From the NCBI GenBank assembly GCA_016191815.1, contig JACPVI010000016.1, forward strand, positions 1 through 64,000: a DNA stretch of 64,000 nucleotides. The letters are read 5' to 3'. The notes beneath the pieces are model-generated. The model was not told where the DNA came from. It was given only the letters and a program-made list of their open reading frames with translations, and did not search any database. The stretch comes from Myxococcales bacterium (GTDB lineage: Bacteria > Myxococcota > Myxococcia > Myxococcales > Myxococcaceae). The position numbers were made by a program, and so were the translations under genes. Of the stretch, positions 16,933 through 26,403 are shown one piece after another (position 1 is the first letter of the stretch; the number at the start of each line of letters is the position of its first letter).

Positions 16933-18309
16933 ATGGATTTCGACGTGCTGGTTGTGGGCGGAGGCATGGCCGGGCTCGGCGCCGCCAAGGCGGCGGCCGA
17001 CCTCGGAGCCAAGGTGGCGCTTGCCGAGCCTGAGCAGCTTGGTGGCACTTGACTCAACAGAGGGTGCATCCCCAAGAAGGCCCTGGTCAGGGCTGCCCAG
17101 ATGTTCCACCTGGCTCGGCAGCTCGAGGAGTTCGGGATCGAGACGGGGCCGCTCCGCCTCGACTGGGAGCGAGCGGTCGGACGCAAGGATGCGCTGGTCC
17201 GGAAGTACCTCGGCACCAAGGCCGAAGCGCTGAGGGAGCGGGGCATCGAGTGGCTCAAGCATCCGGTGCGTTTCCTGGGCCGACAGGCCATCGAGGCTGG
17301 CGGGCGGAGGCTCACGGCGAGAAAGGTCATCCTCGCGACCGGCTCGAAGCCATTGCGCCCTTCCATTTCAGGCATCGAGCACACGCTGGACAGCGCGGAC
17401 ATCCTCAACCTCAAGCGCCTTCCGCCTCGCCTGCTCGTCGTGGGCGGAGGAGTCATCGCAATGGAGTTCGCCAGCATCTTCGGACACGTTGGTTCGAAGG
17501 TGACGGTGCTCGAGGCCAGGCCGACCATCCTGGCGGGTGTCGATGCGGACCTCCGCCGGGCCATCGAGGACGCCGCGCCCGGCTGGAACGTCGCCGTGCA
17601 CGCCGGCGCGAAAGTCCTCGGCATTGAACGAACGGACGGCCTGCTCTCGGTGGCCACGGAGATTGGGGGCAGGCAGCAGTGGTTCCAGGCGGAGACGGTG
17701 CTGATGGCCACGGGACGCGTGCCGCGACTCGACGGGCTGGAGGTGGAGAAGCTCGGGGTCGTGGTCGAGCGGACCGGCGTTCACACGAACGAGTACCTCG
17801 AAACGGATGCCGAGGGCATCTATGCGGTCGGAGACCTGCACGGCCGGTTTCAGTTGACGCCCATCGCCGACTACGAGGGCAAGCTCGCCGCGCGCAACGC
17901 CATCGAGGGCAACGTAGAGAAGGCCGACTACCGCGTGGTGACGCAGACCATCTTCACCATCCCCTCGGCGTCGTCGGTCGGCTTGACCGAAGACGAGGCC
18001 CGGACACAGGGGATCGACATTGCGGTGAGCACCATCCCGTTTGCGAAGATCGGTCCGGCGGTCATTGTCGGGAAAGCGGATGGCTTCGTGAAGGTAGTCT
18101 TCGAGCGGAGAAGCGGCCAGCTCATCGGGACGCACATCTTCGGGCACGAGGCCGAGGAGCTCATCCACGAGGCGGCCCTGGCCATGCGGGCGCGGATGAC
18201 TCGCGAGCAACTCCTCAGGACGATTCCCGTGCATCCCAGCCTGTCGGAGGGATTCTTCGGCGCCGTCACGAGCGCCAAGACCGGACACGAGGAGAGCTGC
18301 TGCGGATGA
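16933..18309 (+). CDS. MerA-like FAD/NAD(P) disulfide oxidoreductase, probable selenoprotein (TGA = Sec at codon 40)
   Basis: A 458-residue flavoprotein of the dihydrolipoamide/mercuric reductase group. The FAD site is VVGGGMAGLGAAKAA at 7-21. The redox motif reads G-G-T-(TGA)-L-N-R-G-C45-I-P-K-K, so TGA 17050-17052 takes the place of the first redox Cys. Next come the NAD(P) site VVGGGVIAMEFAS, the second FAD site YAVGDLHG, a dimer interface with HPSLSE, and a MerA-like C-terminal Cys pair (ESCCG). All 418 codons after the TGA are intact. A hairpin with loop GGTC follows at 17080-17093. Since selD in this genome also uses TGA, selenocysteine is the likely reading. It would reduce metal or metalloid disulfide-type substrates with NAD(P)H. 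A plain nonsense mutation is the alternative. Confidence 0.82.
17080..17093 (+). promoter_or_regulatory. Candidate bacterial SECIS hairpin for the oxidoreductase
   Basis: A perfect 5-bp stem GCCCT/AGGGC closes the loop GGTC, extendable by one G-U pair. The loop starts 33 bases after the TGA codon, inside the spacing accepted for bacterial SECIS elements, and begins with G. The same GGUC loop occurs in the E. coli fdhF SECIS. Confidence 0.6.
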
Positions 18310-19911: not shown

Positions 19912-20499
19912 TCACCTCCCCGCCAACGCCAATAGATGCGGCAACATCCTCCTGAACGCCTGCCCCCGGTGCGAGATGGCCGACTTCTCGTGGGGCGAAA
20001 GCTCTGCGAACGTTCGGCCAAGCGACGGGACCCAGAACACCGGATCGTACCCAAACCCTCCCGCACCCCTCGGCCTCCCAAGTATCCGCCCCTCGCACTC
20101 GCCGACCTCTACCACGACTTCGCCTCCGGGCACCGCCAGGCAAAGCGCACAGCGGAAACGCGCTGTCCTCGCGTCCTCGGGCACCTCCCGAAGCTCCTCC
20201 AACAGCCGGCGGATTCGCCCGGCGTCGTCGCTGCCGTACCGCGCCGAGTGCACCCCCGGCCGCCCCCCTAGCGCATCCACGCAGAGCCCCGAATCGTCCG
20301 CCAACGCCGGCAGCCCGCTCGCCTCCGCATACGCCCGCGCTTTCTTCTCCGCGTTCCCCTCGAAGCTCTCTTGGTCCTCCTCCACCTGAGGCGGGTGCGG
20401 GAATTCCGCCGCCGAGACGACCTCCAGCGCGCCGCCCACCAGCCCCCTCAGCTCCGCCAGCTTCCCCGGGTTCGCGGTGGCGAAGATCAACCTGGCCAC
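19912..20499 (-). CDS. rdgB: XTP/dITP diphosphatase (non-canonical purine NTP pyrophosphatase)
   Basis: A 195-residue housecleaning enzyme that hydrolyses XTP, dITP and ITP to monophosphates. It has the family N-terminus [13 protein letters not shown] (substrate-binding TxNxxK-type motif), the central [13 protein letters not shown] with metal-binding Asp, [10 protein letters not shown], and the C-terminal [10 protein letters not shown] and SHRGQAFR motifs. Length is normal. Its start overlaps the end of rph by 13 bases, and the pair is a common operon. Confidence 0.95.
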
Positions 20500-21212
20500 T
20501 GCGAAAGCACCTTCCTCTGCAGCTCCACCAGCTTTCCAATCGCGGCCAGCCCCGCATCCAGCATTGCGTCGAGCTGCCTGCGGTCGAACGGCTTGTGCTC
20601 CGCGGTCCCCTGCACCTCCACCAGCCGGCCGCCCTCCAGGGCCACGAGGTTCATGTCCACCTCGGCCGCCGAGTCCTCCTCGTAGTCCAGGTCGACCCGC
20701 ACCTCCCCGCCCACCATCCCCACCGACACCGCCGCCACCGGCGAGATCGCCGGCATCACCGAGAGCACCTTGTTCTCCTTCAACCGTCGCGCCGCCAGCG
20801 CCAGCGCCACATACGCGCCGGTGATGCTCGCCGTCCTCGTGCCCCCGTCCGCCTGGAGCACGTCGCAGTCCAGCGTCAGGGTCCTCGGCCCCAGCGCCCG
20901 CACCTCCAACGCCGCCCGGAGCGAGCGCCCGATCAGCCGCTGGATCTCCATCGTCCTCCCACCCTGCTTTCCCTTGGCCGCCTCCCGCTGGGTGCGCTGG
21001 TGAGTGGCCCTGGGCAGCATCCCGTACTCGGCCGTCACCCAGCCCGAGCCAGTCCCAACCAGGTGCGGAGGAACCCTGTCCTCCACCGAGCAGGTCACCA
21101 TCACCCGGGTGTGGCCGAACTCCACCTGCACCGAGCCCTCGGCGTGCATCGCCACGCCAGGGAGAAGCTTCACCGGCCGGAGATCCATCGGGCCGCGGTC
21201 GAACGAGCGCAT
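20487..21212 (-). CDS. rph: Ribonuclease PH
   Basis: A 241-residue phosphorolytic 3'-to-5' exoribonuclease that trims tRNA 3' ends. The phosphate-binding and catalytic region is recognisable in [10 protein letters not shown] and [23 protein letters not shown], and the N-terminus carries [20 protein letters not shown]. Length is typical. It precedes rdgB with overlapping ends, and a tRNA pair lies just beyond, which suits its role. Confidence 0.95.
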
Positions 21213-21233
21213 GCCCGGCTCATAGCAGGCAGC

Positions 21234-22010
21234 TCAGGGGCGGGCCACCTTCTCCCGCCCGTCCCGCGCCCGCACCTGGTCCAGAAACGCCTTCGCGCCA
21301 TCGGCAATCGCTCCGGCGAGCAGCTGCTGGTAGGCCGGGTCGGAGAGGCGCTTGCCCTCTTCGGGGTTGGAGACGAACCCCACCTCCACCAGGATCGCCG
21401 GCGCCTCCACGCCCATCAGCACGTAGAAAGGAGCCTGCTGCACGCCGCGGTCGACCGCGCCGGTGGCCGCCACCAGCCGCTGGTGCACCGCGTACGCCGC
21501 CCGCGACGAGTCCACGTGCGCCTCGGTCCTTTGCAAGTCGGCAAGGATGAACGACAAGGTGTCGTCGGCTTTCCCGCCGCCGGCCGCCGGCGCGTCGTCG
21601 TTCTCCCGCGCCGCGGTCCTCCTCGCCTCTTCGTAGGACGCGTTCGCCGAGAGGAAAAAGGTCTCGATCCCCTCGGTGCGCTCCCGCTGCTTCCTGGTCG
21701 GCATCGAGTTCGCGTGGACCGAGATGAACAGGTCCGGCCGATGCCGGTTGGCGAAGGCCACCCGCTCGTCCAGCCCAAGCCGCACGTCCTTCCCACGGGT
21801 CAGCACCACGCGCGCGCCTGCCCTCTCGAGCGCCGAGCGCAATTGGAGCGAGATCTCCAGCGCCAGCGCCTTCTCCAAAAGCTCTCCCACTCCAGTCGCC
21901 CCGGGGCGAGTCCCGCCGTGCCCGGGGTCCACCACCACCAAGGGAGCGCGCTCCCCCGCAGCGAGCGTCAAAGAGAGGGCCAAGGTGCCGACCGACAGCA
22001 TCGGCCCCAT
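21234..22010 (-). CDS. N-acetylmuramoyl-L-alanine amidase (Amidase_3)
   Basis: A 258-residue cell-wall hydrolase that cleaves the amide bond between MurNAc and the stem peptide. The short signal peptide (SVGTLALSLTLAAG) is followed directly by the zinc-amidase domain: VVVDPGHGG (first zinc His), a zinc Glu expected in ELLEKALALEISLQL, LFISVHANS (third ligand region) and the catalytic-type Glu in ILVEVGFVSN. There is no extra binding domain. ATG 22001 is an alternative start. It is in the minus-strand series selD, amidase, rph, rdgB. Confidence 0.92.
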   Translation of the reverse strand: MGPMLSVGTLALSLTLAAGERAPLVVVDPGHGGTRPGATGVGELLEKALALEISLQLRSALERAGARVVLTRGKDVRLGLDERVAFANRHRPDLFISVHANSMPTRKQRERTEGIETFFLSANASYEEARRTAARENDDAPAAGGGKADDTLSFILADLQRTEAHVDSSRAAYAVHQRLVAATGAVDRGVQQAPFYVLMGVEAPAILVEVGFVSNPEEGKRLSDPAYQQLLAGAIADGAKAFLDQVRARDGREKVARP

Positions 22011-22031
22011 CGTAGCGGATGCCGCCCGCCC

Positions 22032-23075
22032 TCACACCACGTCGATTCCCGGCCGACCCTTCTGCACCTCTCCTACCGCGACGGCGGCGACGCCGGCTCG
22101 CTCGAGGAGCGAGAGCGCCCTCTGCACCTGGGAGCGCGGCACCGAGGCCAAGAGCCCGCCGTTGGTCTGGGCGTCGGCCAGCACCCAACGAATGTGCCCG
22201 GGGAGCCCGCGCGGGAAACGCACCTTCGCGCCCACGAATTCGAGGTTGGCCTTGGTGCCGCCCGGCACCACTTCGCGCGCCGCCAGCTCCGGCACCCCCG
22301 CGATGATGGGCACCCGCTCGAGGAACAGGCGCGCCCGCTTCCGCGCCGCGCTCATCATCTCCCACAGGTGCCCGAGCAAGCCGAATCCGGTGACGTCGGT
22401 GAGGGCGTTCACCCGGAAGCGGCGGGAGGCGAATACCTCTCCGGAGGCCATGTTCAGCTCGGACATGACCCGCACCGCGCGGCGGACCAGATCCTTCGGC
22501 GCGACCCCCCTCTTGATGGCGGTGGTGGCGATCCCCGAGCCGAGCGGCTTGGTGAGGAGGAGCACATCCCCCTCCCTCGCCCCGGCGTTGGTGAGCACGC
22601 GCCTCGGGTGGACGACGCCGGTCACCGCGAGCCCGTACTTCGGCTCCGGATCCTGAACCGTGTGGCCTCCGAGAATCGGCACCCCCGCCTCGGCCGCCTT
22701 CCTCTGGCCGCCGGCGAGGATCCGGGTCAACAGCGAGACCGGCAGCTCGCGGGGGAAGGTGACGATGTTCAGCGCGAAGAGCGGCTTCGCCCCCATCGCC
22801 CAGATGTCGGAGAGCGCATTGGCGGCGGCGATCGCTCCGAAGGTGAACGGGTCGTCCACCACCGGAGGAAAGAAGTCGACCGTCTCGACCACTGCTAGAT
22901 CGGGCCTCAGCCGATAGACTGCGGCGTCGTCGCTGGTGGAAAAACCCACCAGCGCGCAATCGTCCTGCACCCGCTTGAGCCGGCGCAGCACCTGCGCCAG
23001 ATCCGCCGCGCGGATCTTCGCGGCTCAGCCGGCGCAGCGGCTCAGCTCGGTCAGCCGCGGCCTCTGCTCGTCCAT
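22032..23075 (-). CDS. selD: Selenide, water dikinase, itself a selenoprotein (Sec at codon 17)
   Basis: SelD makes selenophosphate from selenide and ATP, the selenium donor for Sec-tRNA. With ATG 23075 (after GGGGAGGG) the protein has 347 residues, the normal size. Codon 17, complement of 23025-23027, is TGA, exactly where E. coli SelD has catalytic Cys17 (here R-C-A-G-Sec-A-A-K20); the catalytic Lys follows three residues on. Downstream are DDAAVYRL, the metal-binding ANALSDIWAMGAKP and GGHTVQDPEPKYG. Starting after the TGA would delete the active site. The perfect hairpin at 22999-23017 is its SECIS candidate. The gene shows that this organism inserts selenocysteine. Confidence 0.95.
22999..23017 (-). 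promoter_or_regulatory. SECIS hairpin of selD
   Basis: A perfect 8-bp stem AGATCCGC/GCGGATCT with loop GCG. The loop begins 16 bases after the TGA codon on the coding strand and has G first, matching the bacterial SECIS pattern that recruits SelB. Confidence 0.8.
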
Positions 23076-23200
23076 GGGCCCTCCCCGACCCGCAAGCTAG
23101 CACCAGACAGACTCGGATTGGCCGAGAGCCACAGCGTCGTCGAAATGACGCTCGATCAAGGCGAGAATGTTTAGTCTGGCGGGCCGATGGGGGAGAGAGC

Positions 23201-24151
23201 TCAACCAGCCCGGACGTAGTCCTTGCGGATCAGCTCCAGGACGACCGTCGCTGCGGTGACGTCGTCCTTGTCCGAGTGGTCGAGCACGCCCTGGAGGCTG
23301 CCGTAGTTGTGTACGAGCTGCAAGACGTCGAGCTGCTCGGGCCCGAGCGCGCGTATCGGGGAAGTCATCGGGATCGCCAGGGTCAGCACCGAGGTGACTG
23401 GAGGCAGCTCCTTCTGGATCCGCCTGAACTCGTCGAGCTGCCGCAGCCCTTCCATGAGCAAGGCCTCGGTGGAGCTGTCCAGCTCGACCATGAACTCCTG
23501 CTGGTCCGGGGGCTGCAGCTCGAAGTCGCCGGTCTCCCAGGTGATGATCCGGTTGAAGCTCTTCTGCGGCCCCAGCTCGTGGTTCTCGTCGATGATCGCG
23601 TAGTACACCCGGCCACCCCGGAGGTAGAGGCGGGCCTCCTGGTCGTTCTTTACCACCAGCACCCCGTTCTTCTTCGAGGTGTGGAAGAGCTGCAAGAGGT
23701 CGGGCAAGGGGACCTCTTCGATCTTCCCGGTCATCGAGGAGGCCTTGGTGGCCCGCGCCGCCTGGGCCACCGCCGCCTCTTCCAGCTTCTGCTTGACCGC
23801 GGTCTCGTCCAGGTCGGGCGCGTTCGCCCCCTGGTGCACCAGCTTGAGGATGGAGGTGCCGATGAGGATCCGGTCCCCCTCCTTCAGCCGGGCCTGCTTG
23901 ATCTTCTCCCCGTTGACGAAGGTGCCGTTGGTGGAGCCCAGATCCTCGATGGTGATCTTCCCGCCGATGACGGTGATCTTCGCGTGCTTGCGCGAGACCA
24001 TGTCTTCGACCAGCACCATGTCCAATTCGCTGGAGCGGCCGATCACGATCTGCCTCTCCGGCTTGAGGGGGAACTCTCCTCCCTGGTACTTGCCGGAGAT
24101 GAACCTGAGCGCGAAGCTCTTTTGAGCGCTCGCTGGCGCCGGCGGGCTCAC
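23201..24151 (-). CDS. FHA domain protein with DUF4388 (PATAN) region
   Basis: A 316-residue signalling protein. Residues about 10-105 form a forkhead-associated domain that binds phospho-Thr peptides: IVIGRSSELDMVLVEDMVSRKHAKI and LGSTNGTFVNGEKI are the binding loops. The second half is a DUF4388/PATAN-type region (TGKIEEVPLPDLLQLFHTSKKNGVL...). This pairing is common in myxobacteria, where it links Ser/Thr kinase signalling to other outputs. GTG 24151 is preferred over an ATG at 24214, because the longer form would overlap the preceding TPR gene and add a polar tail before the FHA domain. Confidence 0.85.
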   Translation of the reverse strand: MSPPAPASAQKSFALRFISGKYQGGEFPLKPERQIVIGRSSELDMVLVEDMVSRKHAKITVIGGKITIEDLGSTNGTFVNGEKIKQARLKEGDRILIGTSILKLVHQGANAPDLDETAVKQKLEEAAVAQAARATKASSMTGKIEEVPLPDLLQLFHTSKKNGVLVVKNDQEARLYLRGGRVYYAIIDENHELGPQKSFNRIITWETGDFELQPPDQQEFMVELDSSTEALLMEGLRQLDEFRRIQKELPPVTSVLTLAIPMTSPIRALGPEQLDVLQLVHNYGSLQGVLDHSDKDDVTAATVVLELIRKDYVRAG

Positions 24152-24185
24152 CCTTCGACCCCTTTTGGTTGTGCGTGAGTATACA

Positions 24186-24908
24186 TCAGCCGACCTGGTC
24201 GCCCTTTCCCGCATCCTTGACGAGGTTCAGGTACATCTCCGCGCTCCGGTTGCCTGGGTCCCTGGCGAGCACGTCCTCCCAGACCTTGACCGCCTCCGCC
24301 TTTCGCCCGCACGAGTACAGCGCGATGCCGTAGTGGACCCTCCCCGGCACATAGTTGGAGTTGACCCGGATTATCTCCTCGAATTGGGCGATCGCATCTT
24401 CGTAGCGCTTGAGGTCCCGGTAGGCGTCGCCCAGCTTGAGGCGGATATCCACGAACTGGGGGCAGAGCTCCAGGGCCCTCCGGTACTCGCCGATGGCCTG
24501 CTCGAGCATCCCGGAGGAGCCGAACACGTCGCCGATGTCCGCGTACATGTTGGCGATCTTCCCCTGCACGAAGGGGTCGAGCTGCCCTGGGGAGTTCCTC
24601 TGGCGGCTCAGGGCGGACTGATAGACCTCCTTGGCCTCCTTGTACTTGCCGAGGTCGTTGTAGATGACCGCGAGGTTGAGCGCCGCCTCGGTGTAGGCGG
24701 GGTTTAGCCTTAGCGCCGCCTCGAAGGCCCGCTGGGCCCGGGCGAACTGGCCCTGGTCGTGGTAGACGACGCCGAGCATGTTGTACACGTCGGCGAAGGA
24801 CTGGTTCCGCTCCACCACCTGGGAGAGGCACTTCTCCGCCTCGACGTACTGCTTCTTCTCGAAGTAGCCCCGCCCCAGGGTCAGGAGCTGCTTGAGCGCC
24901 TCGTCCAT
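24186..24908 (-). CDS. Tetratricopeptide-repeat protein
   Basis: A 240-residue cytoplasmic protein of about six TPR units, such as YVEAEKCLSQVVERNQSFADVYNMLGVVY and KAEAVKVWEDVLARDPGN. It has no signal peptide, so it probably acts as a protein-binding scaffold. It lies between the 231-residue membrane-protein gene and the FHA gene, all on the minus strand, and may serve the same signalling complex. No catalytic motif is present. Confidence 0.88.
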   Translation of the reverse strand: MDEALKQLLTLGRGYFEKKQYVEAEKCLSQVVERNQSFADVYNMLGVVYHDQGQFARAQRAFEAALRLNPAYTEAALNLAVIYNDLGKYKEAKEVYQSALSRQRNSPGQLDPFVQGKIANMYADIGDVFGSSGMLEQAIGEYRRALELCPQFVDIRLKLGDAYRDLKRYEDAIAQFEEIIRVNSNYVPGRVHYGIALYSCGRKAEAVKVWEDVLARDPGNRSAEMYLNLVKDAGKGDQVG

Positions 24909-24937
24909 TCCGTGCCGTTCCCCTGCGGCCAGTTAGC

Positions 24938-25633
24938 CTACATGAGGCCGCCCGAAAAGAAGAATTCCCTGCCATTCGATTGGAGCAGGAGCCGGACGGC
25001 GCCAGGCCGGTCGACGGGGCGGTCGGGAGTGTCGCCCTGGAGGCGGTACTCCTCCCGGACCACCACCTCCTCCCGTTCGGAGCGAATGAACCAGGCCAGC
25101 GACCGGTAGCTGCGCCGGCGAAGCCTCAACACCTCCTCGGCCGATTCCACCACTCCGGAGTCTCCGCCCGCACAGAGCGCGGCAAGCGCCGAGGCGTCTC
25201 CCGACTCCAGGGCTCGTCTCCTCCGCTCCAGCGCCTCCACCGCCGCGGACAGCCTCGGCGCCAGGCCCTGCTCCGGCGCCCACTGGTAGCCGGTGCGCAG
25301 GAAGGGGATTCGCTCCAGCCCGAGCGAGCTGACTTCCGTGGGCCCGAGCGCACCCTCGAAGTCCAGGGTGGCGGTCGCAAGGGCGGCCTTGGCGGCCGGG
25401 TCGAACGTGACGCTGATGCGGTCGAACCGGGCCTTCCTGCTCCGCAGCTTGGCCCCGATCTCGGGCAGCTCCAGCTCGAATCCCGCGGCTTCTGCCTTCT
25501 TGAGGGCGGTGATGATCTCCGCCTCTGGGCCGGCGGCGATCCCCAGGAGCCTCGGCAAGAGCACCACCGCCGATACTCCGATGGCCACGATGGAGAGGAT
25601 GAAACCGAGGGCGCGGGCGGATTCCGCTCTCAC
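24938..25633 (-). CDS. Hypothetical membrane-anchored protein
   Basis: A 231-residue protein, not recognised. One N-terminal membrane helix (ALGFILSIVAIGVSAVVLLP) is followed by an alpha/beta periplasmic part. GTG 25633 is the start because it overlaps the bamD stop as GTGA and comes 12 codons before the helix. The coupling to bamD suggests envelope function. The end, RLLLQSNGREFFFSGGL, contains no known motif. Confidence 0.65.
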   Translation of the reverse strand: MRAESARALGFILSIVAIGVSAVVLLPRLLGIAAGPEAEIITALKKAEAAGFELELPEIGAKLRSRKARFDRISVTFDPAAKAALATATLDFEGALGPTEVSSLGLERIPFLRTGYQWAPEQGLAPRLSAAVEALERRRRALESGDASALAALCAGGDSGVVESAEEVLRLRRRSYRSLAWFIRSEREEVVVREEYRLQGDTPDRPVDRPGAVRLLLQSNGREFFFSGGLM

Positions 25634-26403
25634 CCTTCGGCGCCCAAGAGCTTCTGGGCCTTCTGGGCGGCGGGAGTGCCGGGGAGCTTCTGCACCAGTG
25701 CCCTCAGGCTCTCCTTGGCGCGCTCCGGATCGGACAGCTTGAGATAGGCCTCGTGCAGGCCGAAGTAGGCGCGCTCCTCGAAGCCCAGGCCGGCGAACTC
25801 GTTCACCACCCGGTTGAGCCTGCCGACCACCGCGCGCCACTTCTCCTTGGCGGCGTAGAACTCCGCCACGTACATCTCGTGCTCGGCCAGGCGGCGGCGG
25901 GCATCGTCGGCGAGCTTCTTCGCCTCGACGACGTACGGCGACTTCGGGTAGGTGCGAATGAACTCGCCCATCGCGACCAGGGTGCTGCGCACCTCGACCT
26001 GGTCCTTCTCGCGCGAGGAAGGCAAGAGGAAGAAGTCCGAAGGAATCTCCCGGTGGTGGGTGAGCGCCGCCCGGAAAGCCGCGTAGTCCACCTTGGGGTG
26101 GGTGGGGTGCAGCTTGATGAAGTTCCGGTAGCGGTCGCGGGCCTCGAGGAACTGCTCCCGCTCGAAGTCGGTGTCGGCGAGCCGGAGCTCCGCCCCCCTC
26201 GCCGCCTCGAGGAAGGGGTACTTGGTCTTCACGTACTCGAAGTACCGCTCGGCCTCGATGAAGTTCTTGGACTCCAAAGCCTCGTCGCCCTTGGCGAGGT
26301 TGGTTTCGGCGTCGGCCGCATAGTCCGGCTCGGGGACGTCGCCGGAGGTGGTGGCGCAGCCGGCCCACAGCGCCGCCGCCAGCAGCACGCAGGGGGGTTT
26401 CAT
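25630..26403 (-). CDS. bamD: Outer-membrane assembly lipoprotein BamD-like
   Basis: A 257-residue lipoprotein (signal ending AALWAGC, lipid Cys at 16) with TPR-like helices, as in BamD, the lipoprotein partner of BamA in outer-membrane protein insertion. Typical segments are AERYFEYVKTKYPF near residue 55 and ARDRYRNFIKLHPTHPKVDYAAFRAAL. Length agrees with the family. It is coupled by GTGA to the next gene and follows recX. General outer-membrane TPR lipoproteins can look alike, so the name rests on length and layout. Confidence 0.8.
   Translation of the reverse strand: MKPPCVLLAAALWAGCATTSGDVPEPDYAADAETNLAKGDEALESKNFIEAERYFEYVKTKYPFLEAARGAELRLADTDFEREQFLEARDRYRNFIKLHPTHPKVDYAAFRAALTHHREIPSDFFLLPSSREKDQVEVRSTLVAMGEFIRTYPKSPYVVEAKKLADDARRRLAEHEMYVAEFYAAKEKWRAVVGRLNRVVNEFAGLGFEERAYFGLHEAYLKLSDPERAKESLRALVQKLPGTPAAQKAQKLLGAEG

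Follow-up and report, generated by a model that had tools for sequence, protein, structure and literature searches.

The selD Gene and Its In-Frame UGA

In the window (the whole 64,000-nucleotide stretch of DNA that was analysed), the minus strand carries a gene for selenide-water dikinase, selD, in which an in-frame UGA at codon 17, counted from ATG 23075, is followed by two adjoining hairpins, denoted here as H1 and H2; 4 kb from selD, the plus strand carries another gene with an in-frame UGA (Table 1). The SelD product was recognized by two curated family models, its TIGR00476 score exceeding a cut-off of 125 and that against PRK00943 reaching 333.6 (cut-off 299), and the closest solved chain, itself a SelD, was matched with an E of 2.4e-71. 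In the alignment with this chain, U17 and K20 of the window protein stand opposite a Cys and a Lys, so that the catalytic Sec/Cys and Lys of the N-terminal loop are both in place. A preliminary description of the locus had held that the N-terminus R-C-A-G-(TGA)-A-A-K is read only if the TGA is translated, and the frame, the UGA and the peptide R-C-A-G-U-A-A-K were all found as claimed. Its warning that automatic gene callers would start 28 codons late and lose the catalytic residue was equally sound: the next in-frame start is GTG 22991, which opens a conventional ORF of 319 residues and which, besides being a false start, forms the loop of H2. For annotation, the point is that callers stopping at the UGA drop the catalytic residue of SelD.

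Table 1. Features of the selD locus and of the second UGA-containing gene (offsets are counted from the respective UGA).
Feature	Position	Strand	Remarks
selD, selenide-water dikinase	22032..23075	-	347 aa with Sec17; TIGR00476 369.4 bits; closest solved chain 3u0o
In-frame UGA, read as Sec17	23025..23027	-	TGA or Cys codon at the matching place in relatives
GGGGAGG, Shine-Dalgarno-like	23080..23086	-	4 bases ahead of ATG 23075; by eye
H1, AGAUCCGC-GCG-GCGGAUCU	22999..23017	-	+8..+26; upstream element of variable strength
H2, likely SECIS, GGCGCAG-GUG-CUGCGCC	22982..22998	-	+27..+43; adjoins H1, just outside the interval of the preliminary description
GGUG of the H2 apex	22989..22992	-	+33..+36; candidate SelB contact
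Putative second Sec gene, class I pyridine-nucleotide disulfide oxidoreductase	16933..18309	+	GGT-U-LNRGCIP; UGA 17050-17052
SECIS-like hairpin GGCCCU-GGUC-AGGGCU	17079..17094	+	GGUC at +33..+36

The genome holding the window (6.77 Mb in 89 contigs, 98.8% complete) contains the machinery for selenocysteine. A tRNA-Sec with anticodon TCA (UCA) scored 77.9 bits (cut-off 47), SelB 334.2 bits (cut-off 242.25) and SelA 570.3 bits (cut-off 267.9), so that selA, selB and selC, the three genes that define the Sec-decoding trait, are all present. The preliminary description had proposed a search for selA, selB and tRNA-Sec and had named absence of the Sec machinery as the result that would speak against its reading; all three were found over their cut-offs. 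Neither a selenouridine synthase nor a formate dehydrogenase alpha subunit was found over cut-off in this genome.

Sec- and Cys-Type SelD in the Myxococcota

A search of 195 Myxococcota genomes with a SelD query (E <= 0.001) gave matches in 175. Among the matches listed, 83 genomes are Sec-type, with TGA at the site, and 62 are Cys-type and stop-free, counts from which were left out genomes with only weak or unlisted matches, G002, G171 and G187 (no stop in a SelD match of less than 50% identity), G086, which is a fragment, and the additional Cys-type copy in G005. The Cys-type codon at the Sec site was TGC, and once TGT, in the Myxococcota loci extracted. The comparison of Sec- and Cys-type proteins, suggested in the preliminary description, shows TGA alternating with a codon for Cys at the UGA site of the window. 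Together with the SelD score and the Sec machinery of the genome, this alternation upheld the claim that selD is itself a selenoprotein gene with Sec17 as its catalytic residue. The selD of the window is, in this respect, an ordinary Sec-type gene and a new example of a known situation: in the portion of PMC13188914 drawn on here, Sec-type SelD ranks second among prokaryotic selenoprotein families in breadth of distribution, and Table 3 of PMC1794560 lists it for Anaeromyxobacter dehalogenans.

SelA was present in 80 of the 83 Sec-type and 60 of the 62 Cys-type genomes, and SelB, at E <= 1e-80, in 66/83 and 55/62, respectively. Seventeen Sec-type genomes were without SelB at this threshold and three without SelA, which speaks against the Sec reading (several of these genomes are incomplete); both proteins are kept in 55 of the 62 Cys-type genomes, for instance in Myxococcus and Corallococcus. 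A quick-method tree with 75 Sec-type and 35 Cys-type SelD proteins (110 in all) needs four state changes. All four can be read, from these sequences, as Sec replaced by Cys, and three fall within the window's family; this kind of change is already described for SelD in the same portion of PMC13188914. In this tree, the SelD of L023, from a record that bears the name Comamonas sp. KCTC 72670, nests within Myxococcus, and that genome is probably mislabelled.

Some further variation was observed around the site. Within SelD residues 14-20, an extra Cys lies at -3 in the window's family (CAGU-AAK) and at +2 in the sister families (GAGU-ACK), and some distant SelD proteins have it at neither place. 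The genome G005 carries both types, L189 (G005:C477) and L178 (G005:C273) being one Sec-type and one Cys-type; the Cys-type gene retains a perfectly paired 9-bp hairpin (loop at +28), possibly a relic of a recent Sec-to-Cys change, or else a sign of a foreign contig.

H2 as the Likely SECIS

From 80 loci, 39 (L018-L056) were taken into the Myxococcota sets, and L058, the SelD of an Actinomycetota MAG, was added to set A1. The hairpins were compared in 51 Sec-type sequences aligned without gaps (50 from Myxococcota plus L058), which are related and hence not independent. Full pairing of the window sequence (8/8 in H1, 7/7 in H2) was reached by 7.7% and 3.5%, respectively, of its synonymous recodings, and a single sequence thus decides little.

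Across relatives, the pattern of H2 is clear-cut: its columns are paired in 98.9% of cells in the 51 Sec-type sequences vs 62.3% in 25 Cys-type sequences, and three of its pairs changed on both sides (G-C to C-G nine times in one, G-C to C-G once and G-C to A-U once in the others). The joint score of H1 and H2 in the Sec-type set was matched by 0/500 shuffles. Against a null of synonymous recoding, H2 had 6.93 vs 5.04 of 7 pairs in the 27 Sec-type sequences of the window's family and 6.96 vs 4.72 of 7 in the 26 of the sister families (0/1000 in both). After thinning at 90% identity, which left 15 window-family Sec, 19 sister-family Sec and 17 Cys-type sequences, the result was 0/300 in both Sec-type groups. 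In 30 Cys-type sequences, H2 pairing (4.23) lay at the null (4.41). Part of the invariance of H2 is due to a conserved LAQV peptide, which the synonymous null takes into account. Unconstrained RNAalifold predicted H2 alone on the 51 Sec-type sequences, omitting H1 from the consensus, and placed neither hairpin in the consensus of the 25 Cys-type ones. The Sec- and Cys-type relatives amount to a clean natural experiment, in which the window's family keeps H2 with Sec and loses it after the change from Sec to Cys.

The form of H2 likewise agrees with the bacterial SECIS model in the Fig 2 legend of PMC13188914, which gives a loop of 3-9 nt on a stem of 4-16 bp, 16-37 nt between the UGA and the loop, and a G at loop position 1 or 2, as a rule with G or U after it. 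H2 has a perfect 7-bp stem, extended to 9 bp (23000-22980) when a U-G and a C-G beneath it are included. Its loop is of 3 or 5 nt, which sets the spacing at 33 or 32 nt, and the GU columns of its GGUGC apex (G-GU-G-C, fitting N1 G U N N2 with N1 and N2 pairable) are invariant in the 51 Sec-type sequences. The mean folding energy in the 15 thinned window-family sequences is -10.70 kcal/mol, below the limit of -7.5 kcal/mol. What departs from the model, as stated in that legend, is the additional hairpin between the UGA and the SECIS and a spacing at the upper end of the range, the latter counting against the H2 reading.

Searches by score were less telling. With 12.5, H2 came joint first, in a three-way tie, among the 254 open-frame UGAs of the window, which means that the hairpin score alone is not specific. 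An Rfam scan of positions 20000-26000 at E <= 5 gave no SECIS and two sub-threshold chance matches. A covariance model of H1 plus H2, run on 145 genomes, gave 61 matches at selD places with E from 2e-16 to 9e-11, a search that is partly circular because many of these sequences are in the model. Weaker matches began at 1.5e-5; four of them were set aside as chance, the one in the window genome (C66) having no UGA at the match start and the other three no discernible Sec gene.

The explanation that fits best, and that we hold with high confidence, is that selenocysteine is inserted at codon 17 of SelD under the direction of H2. In the mechanism proposed, the ribosome would meet the UGA at codon 17, and SelB carrying Sec-tRNA-Sec would bind H2 through the GGU apex 33 nt downstream and deliver selenocysteine at the UGA, with H1, lying between the two, acting perhaps as an accessory fold. 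Sec17, with Lys20, would then convert selenide and ATP into selenophosphate, which would feed SelA and hence the synthesis of SelD itself.

H1 and the Alternative Readings

The preliminary description had drawn attention to H1, whose perfect 8-bp stem with a GCG loop, starting eight bases past the TGA, lies where it was said to; what did not hold was its designation as the SECIS. H1 leaves a spacing of 15 nt, one short of the bacterial range of 16-37 nt. Its loop lacks the G[G/U] of bacterial SECIS, being GCG in the window and mostly CCG, CCC or GCC in relatives, and its stem is often imperfect in Sec-type relatives, 83.8% of cells being paired in the 51 Sec-type sequences vs 53.0% in the 25 Cys-type ones. 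In the window's family (27 Sec-types), the pairing of H1 equals that of synonymous recodings (5.74 vs 5.76 of 8; 586/1000), rising slightly above the null in the 15 thinned sequences (6.07 vs 5.76; 35/300). In the 26 Sec-types of the sister families, it reached 7.62 vs 6.04 of 8 (0/1000), and since H1 is selected there, it is more than noise. The 30 Cys-types showed a small excess without explanation (4.33 vs 3.99; 11/1000).

The alternative that survives best is that H1 and H2 form a single two-hairpin SECIS, in which the folding of H1 would take up part of the 32-nt spacer, so that the apex of H2 lies about as far from the UGA as that of fdhA. This is possible, if rather unlikely, and it refines the best explanation, being compatible with H2 as the SECIS. 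In the sister families both hairpins exceed the synonymous null, and in the thinned sets the spacer has a lower folding energy than its synonymous recodings in each Sec-type group (-5.81 vs -3.78 and -10.50 vs -4.57; 0/300 each) and not in the Cys-types (-1.65 vs -2.20). Moreover, H1 shows compensatory changes (A-U to C-G 10 times in the 51 Sec-type sequences), and L058 retains both hairpins at matching positions, in a different sequence. Against this stand the weakness of H1 in many window-family relatives, the weak spacer fold (-3.7 kcal/mol) of the second Sec gene, whose element is also at +33, and the fact that H1 could equally be a ribosome-pausing stem. A broader and more speculative proposal is that, in selD of the Myxococcota, an H1 of variable sequence compacts a long spacer, so that one SelB could read two SECIS spacings by means of a compensating RNA fold.

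That H1 is the SECIS, and H2 a by-product of protein sequence and codon usage, is very improbable. H1 is the stem closest to the UGA, it is perfect in the window and it is selected in the sister families, but its spacing and loop do not fit, its pairing in the window's family is at or barely above the null, and RNAalifold omits it, while H2 exceeds the null in both Sec-type groups at its own spacing. Scarcely credible is a true stop with translation from GTG 22991 (codon 29 being a possible start), or a decayed or mis-sequenced gene, given a TGA at the exact site in 83 genomes of many genera among the matches listed, alternating with Cys codons, an open frame with SelD conservation upstream of the UGA, the Shine-Dalgarno-like site ahead of the ATG and a complete Sec machinery. 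With Sec insertion directed by H2, the case shows that a SECIS need not be the stem closest to the UGA, and the folding of the spacer becomes a testable question.

Comparison with Known Systems

In E. coli fdhF, the distance from the UGA to the apex is 18 nt. The SECIS of that gene, as outlined in the part of PMC8659212 used here, is a 17-nt hairpin with a bulged U17, G23 and U24; H2 shares the GU in its apex and differs in its perfect 7-bp stem, without a bulged U, and in an apex about 14 nt farther from the UGA, the missing bulge counting against the H2 reading. The fdhA genes of relatives of the window genome have SECIS with a GGU or AGU apex, and H2 resembles them in its GGU apex and short GC-rich stem, its apex lying at +33, unlike theirs at +19/+20. 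With Sec-type SelD proteins of bacteria such as Anaeromyxobacter dehalogenans, the window gene shares the family, the single Sec position and a downstream bacterial SECIS, as far as the excerpts of PMC1794560 and PMC4561486 go. The selD of Anaeromyxobacter sp. PSR-1 (L055) has the same UGA, H1 and H2 as the window. Anaeromyxobacter, in another family of the phylum, has GAGU-ACK, unlike the window SelD, whose residue -3 is Cys (CAGU-AAK). A search of the open-access literature found nothing closer on myxobacterial SelD or selenocysteine, or on tandem-hairpin SECIS.

Spacing and the Second UGA Gene

The apex positions of fdhA and selD indicate that spacing is set per gene, and the same SelB would need to accept two spacings, a further point against the H2 reading. 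In distant Myxococcota selD (L170-L175 and L176-L184), SECIS-like hairpin loops lie at +28 and +21, and the element appears to shift its place within the gene from one lineage to another. For the six genes with the loop at +28, pairing did not exceed that of synonymous recodings (7.50 vs 7.13; 56/300), so that this placement rests on inspection. A single fixed UGA-to-apex distance per lineage was ruled out by these distant genes and by fdhA. L058, 49% identical, has H1 and H2 where the window selD has them, in another sequence, which may reflect transfer, deep conservation or misbinning.

The product of the second UGA gene belongs with the disulfide oxidoreductases of lipoamide dehydrogenase/mercuric reductase type, with a best NCBIfam score of 394.9, just below the cut-off of 408.8. 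The idea that SelD is the sole Sec protein of the genome was dropped once this gene turned up. Its hairpin was outside the top 40 of the ranking of 254 open-frame UGAs, and its fold was unremarkable in shuffles of the whole 66-nt stretch (z -0.01); it carries weight solely because loop and position coincide with those in selD, its GGUC standing where selD has GGUG, an independent case of that spacing. Among the matches listed from 145 genomes within the order, none of the others has a TGA, and the nearest of them shares 38% identity. Table excerpts from two reviews name CoA-disulfide reductase/NADH oxidase and not this kind of oxidoreductase, which, judged from its sequence, may be a new selenoprotein family. 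In its redox pair, the UGA stands in place of the first Cys, and the C-terminus reads ESCCG.
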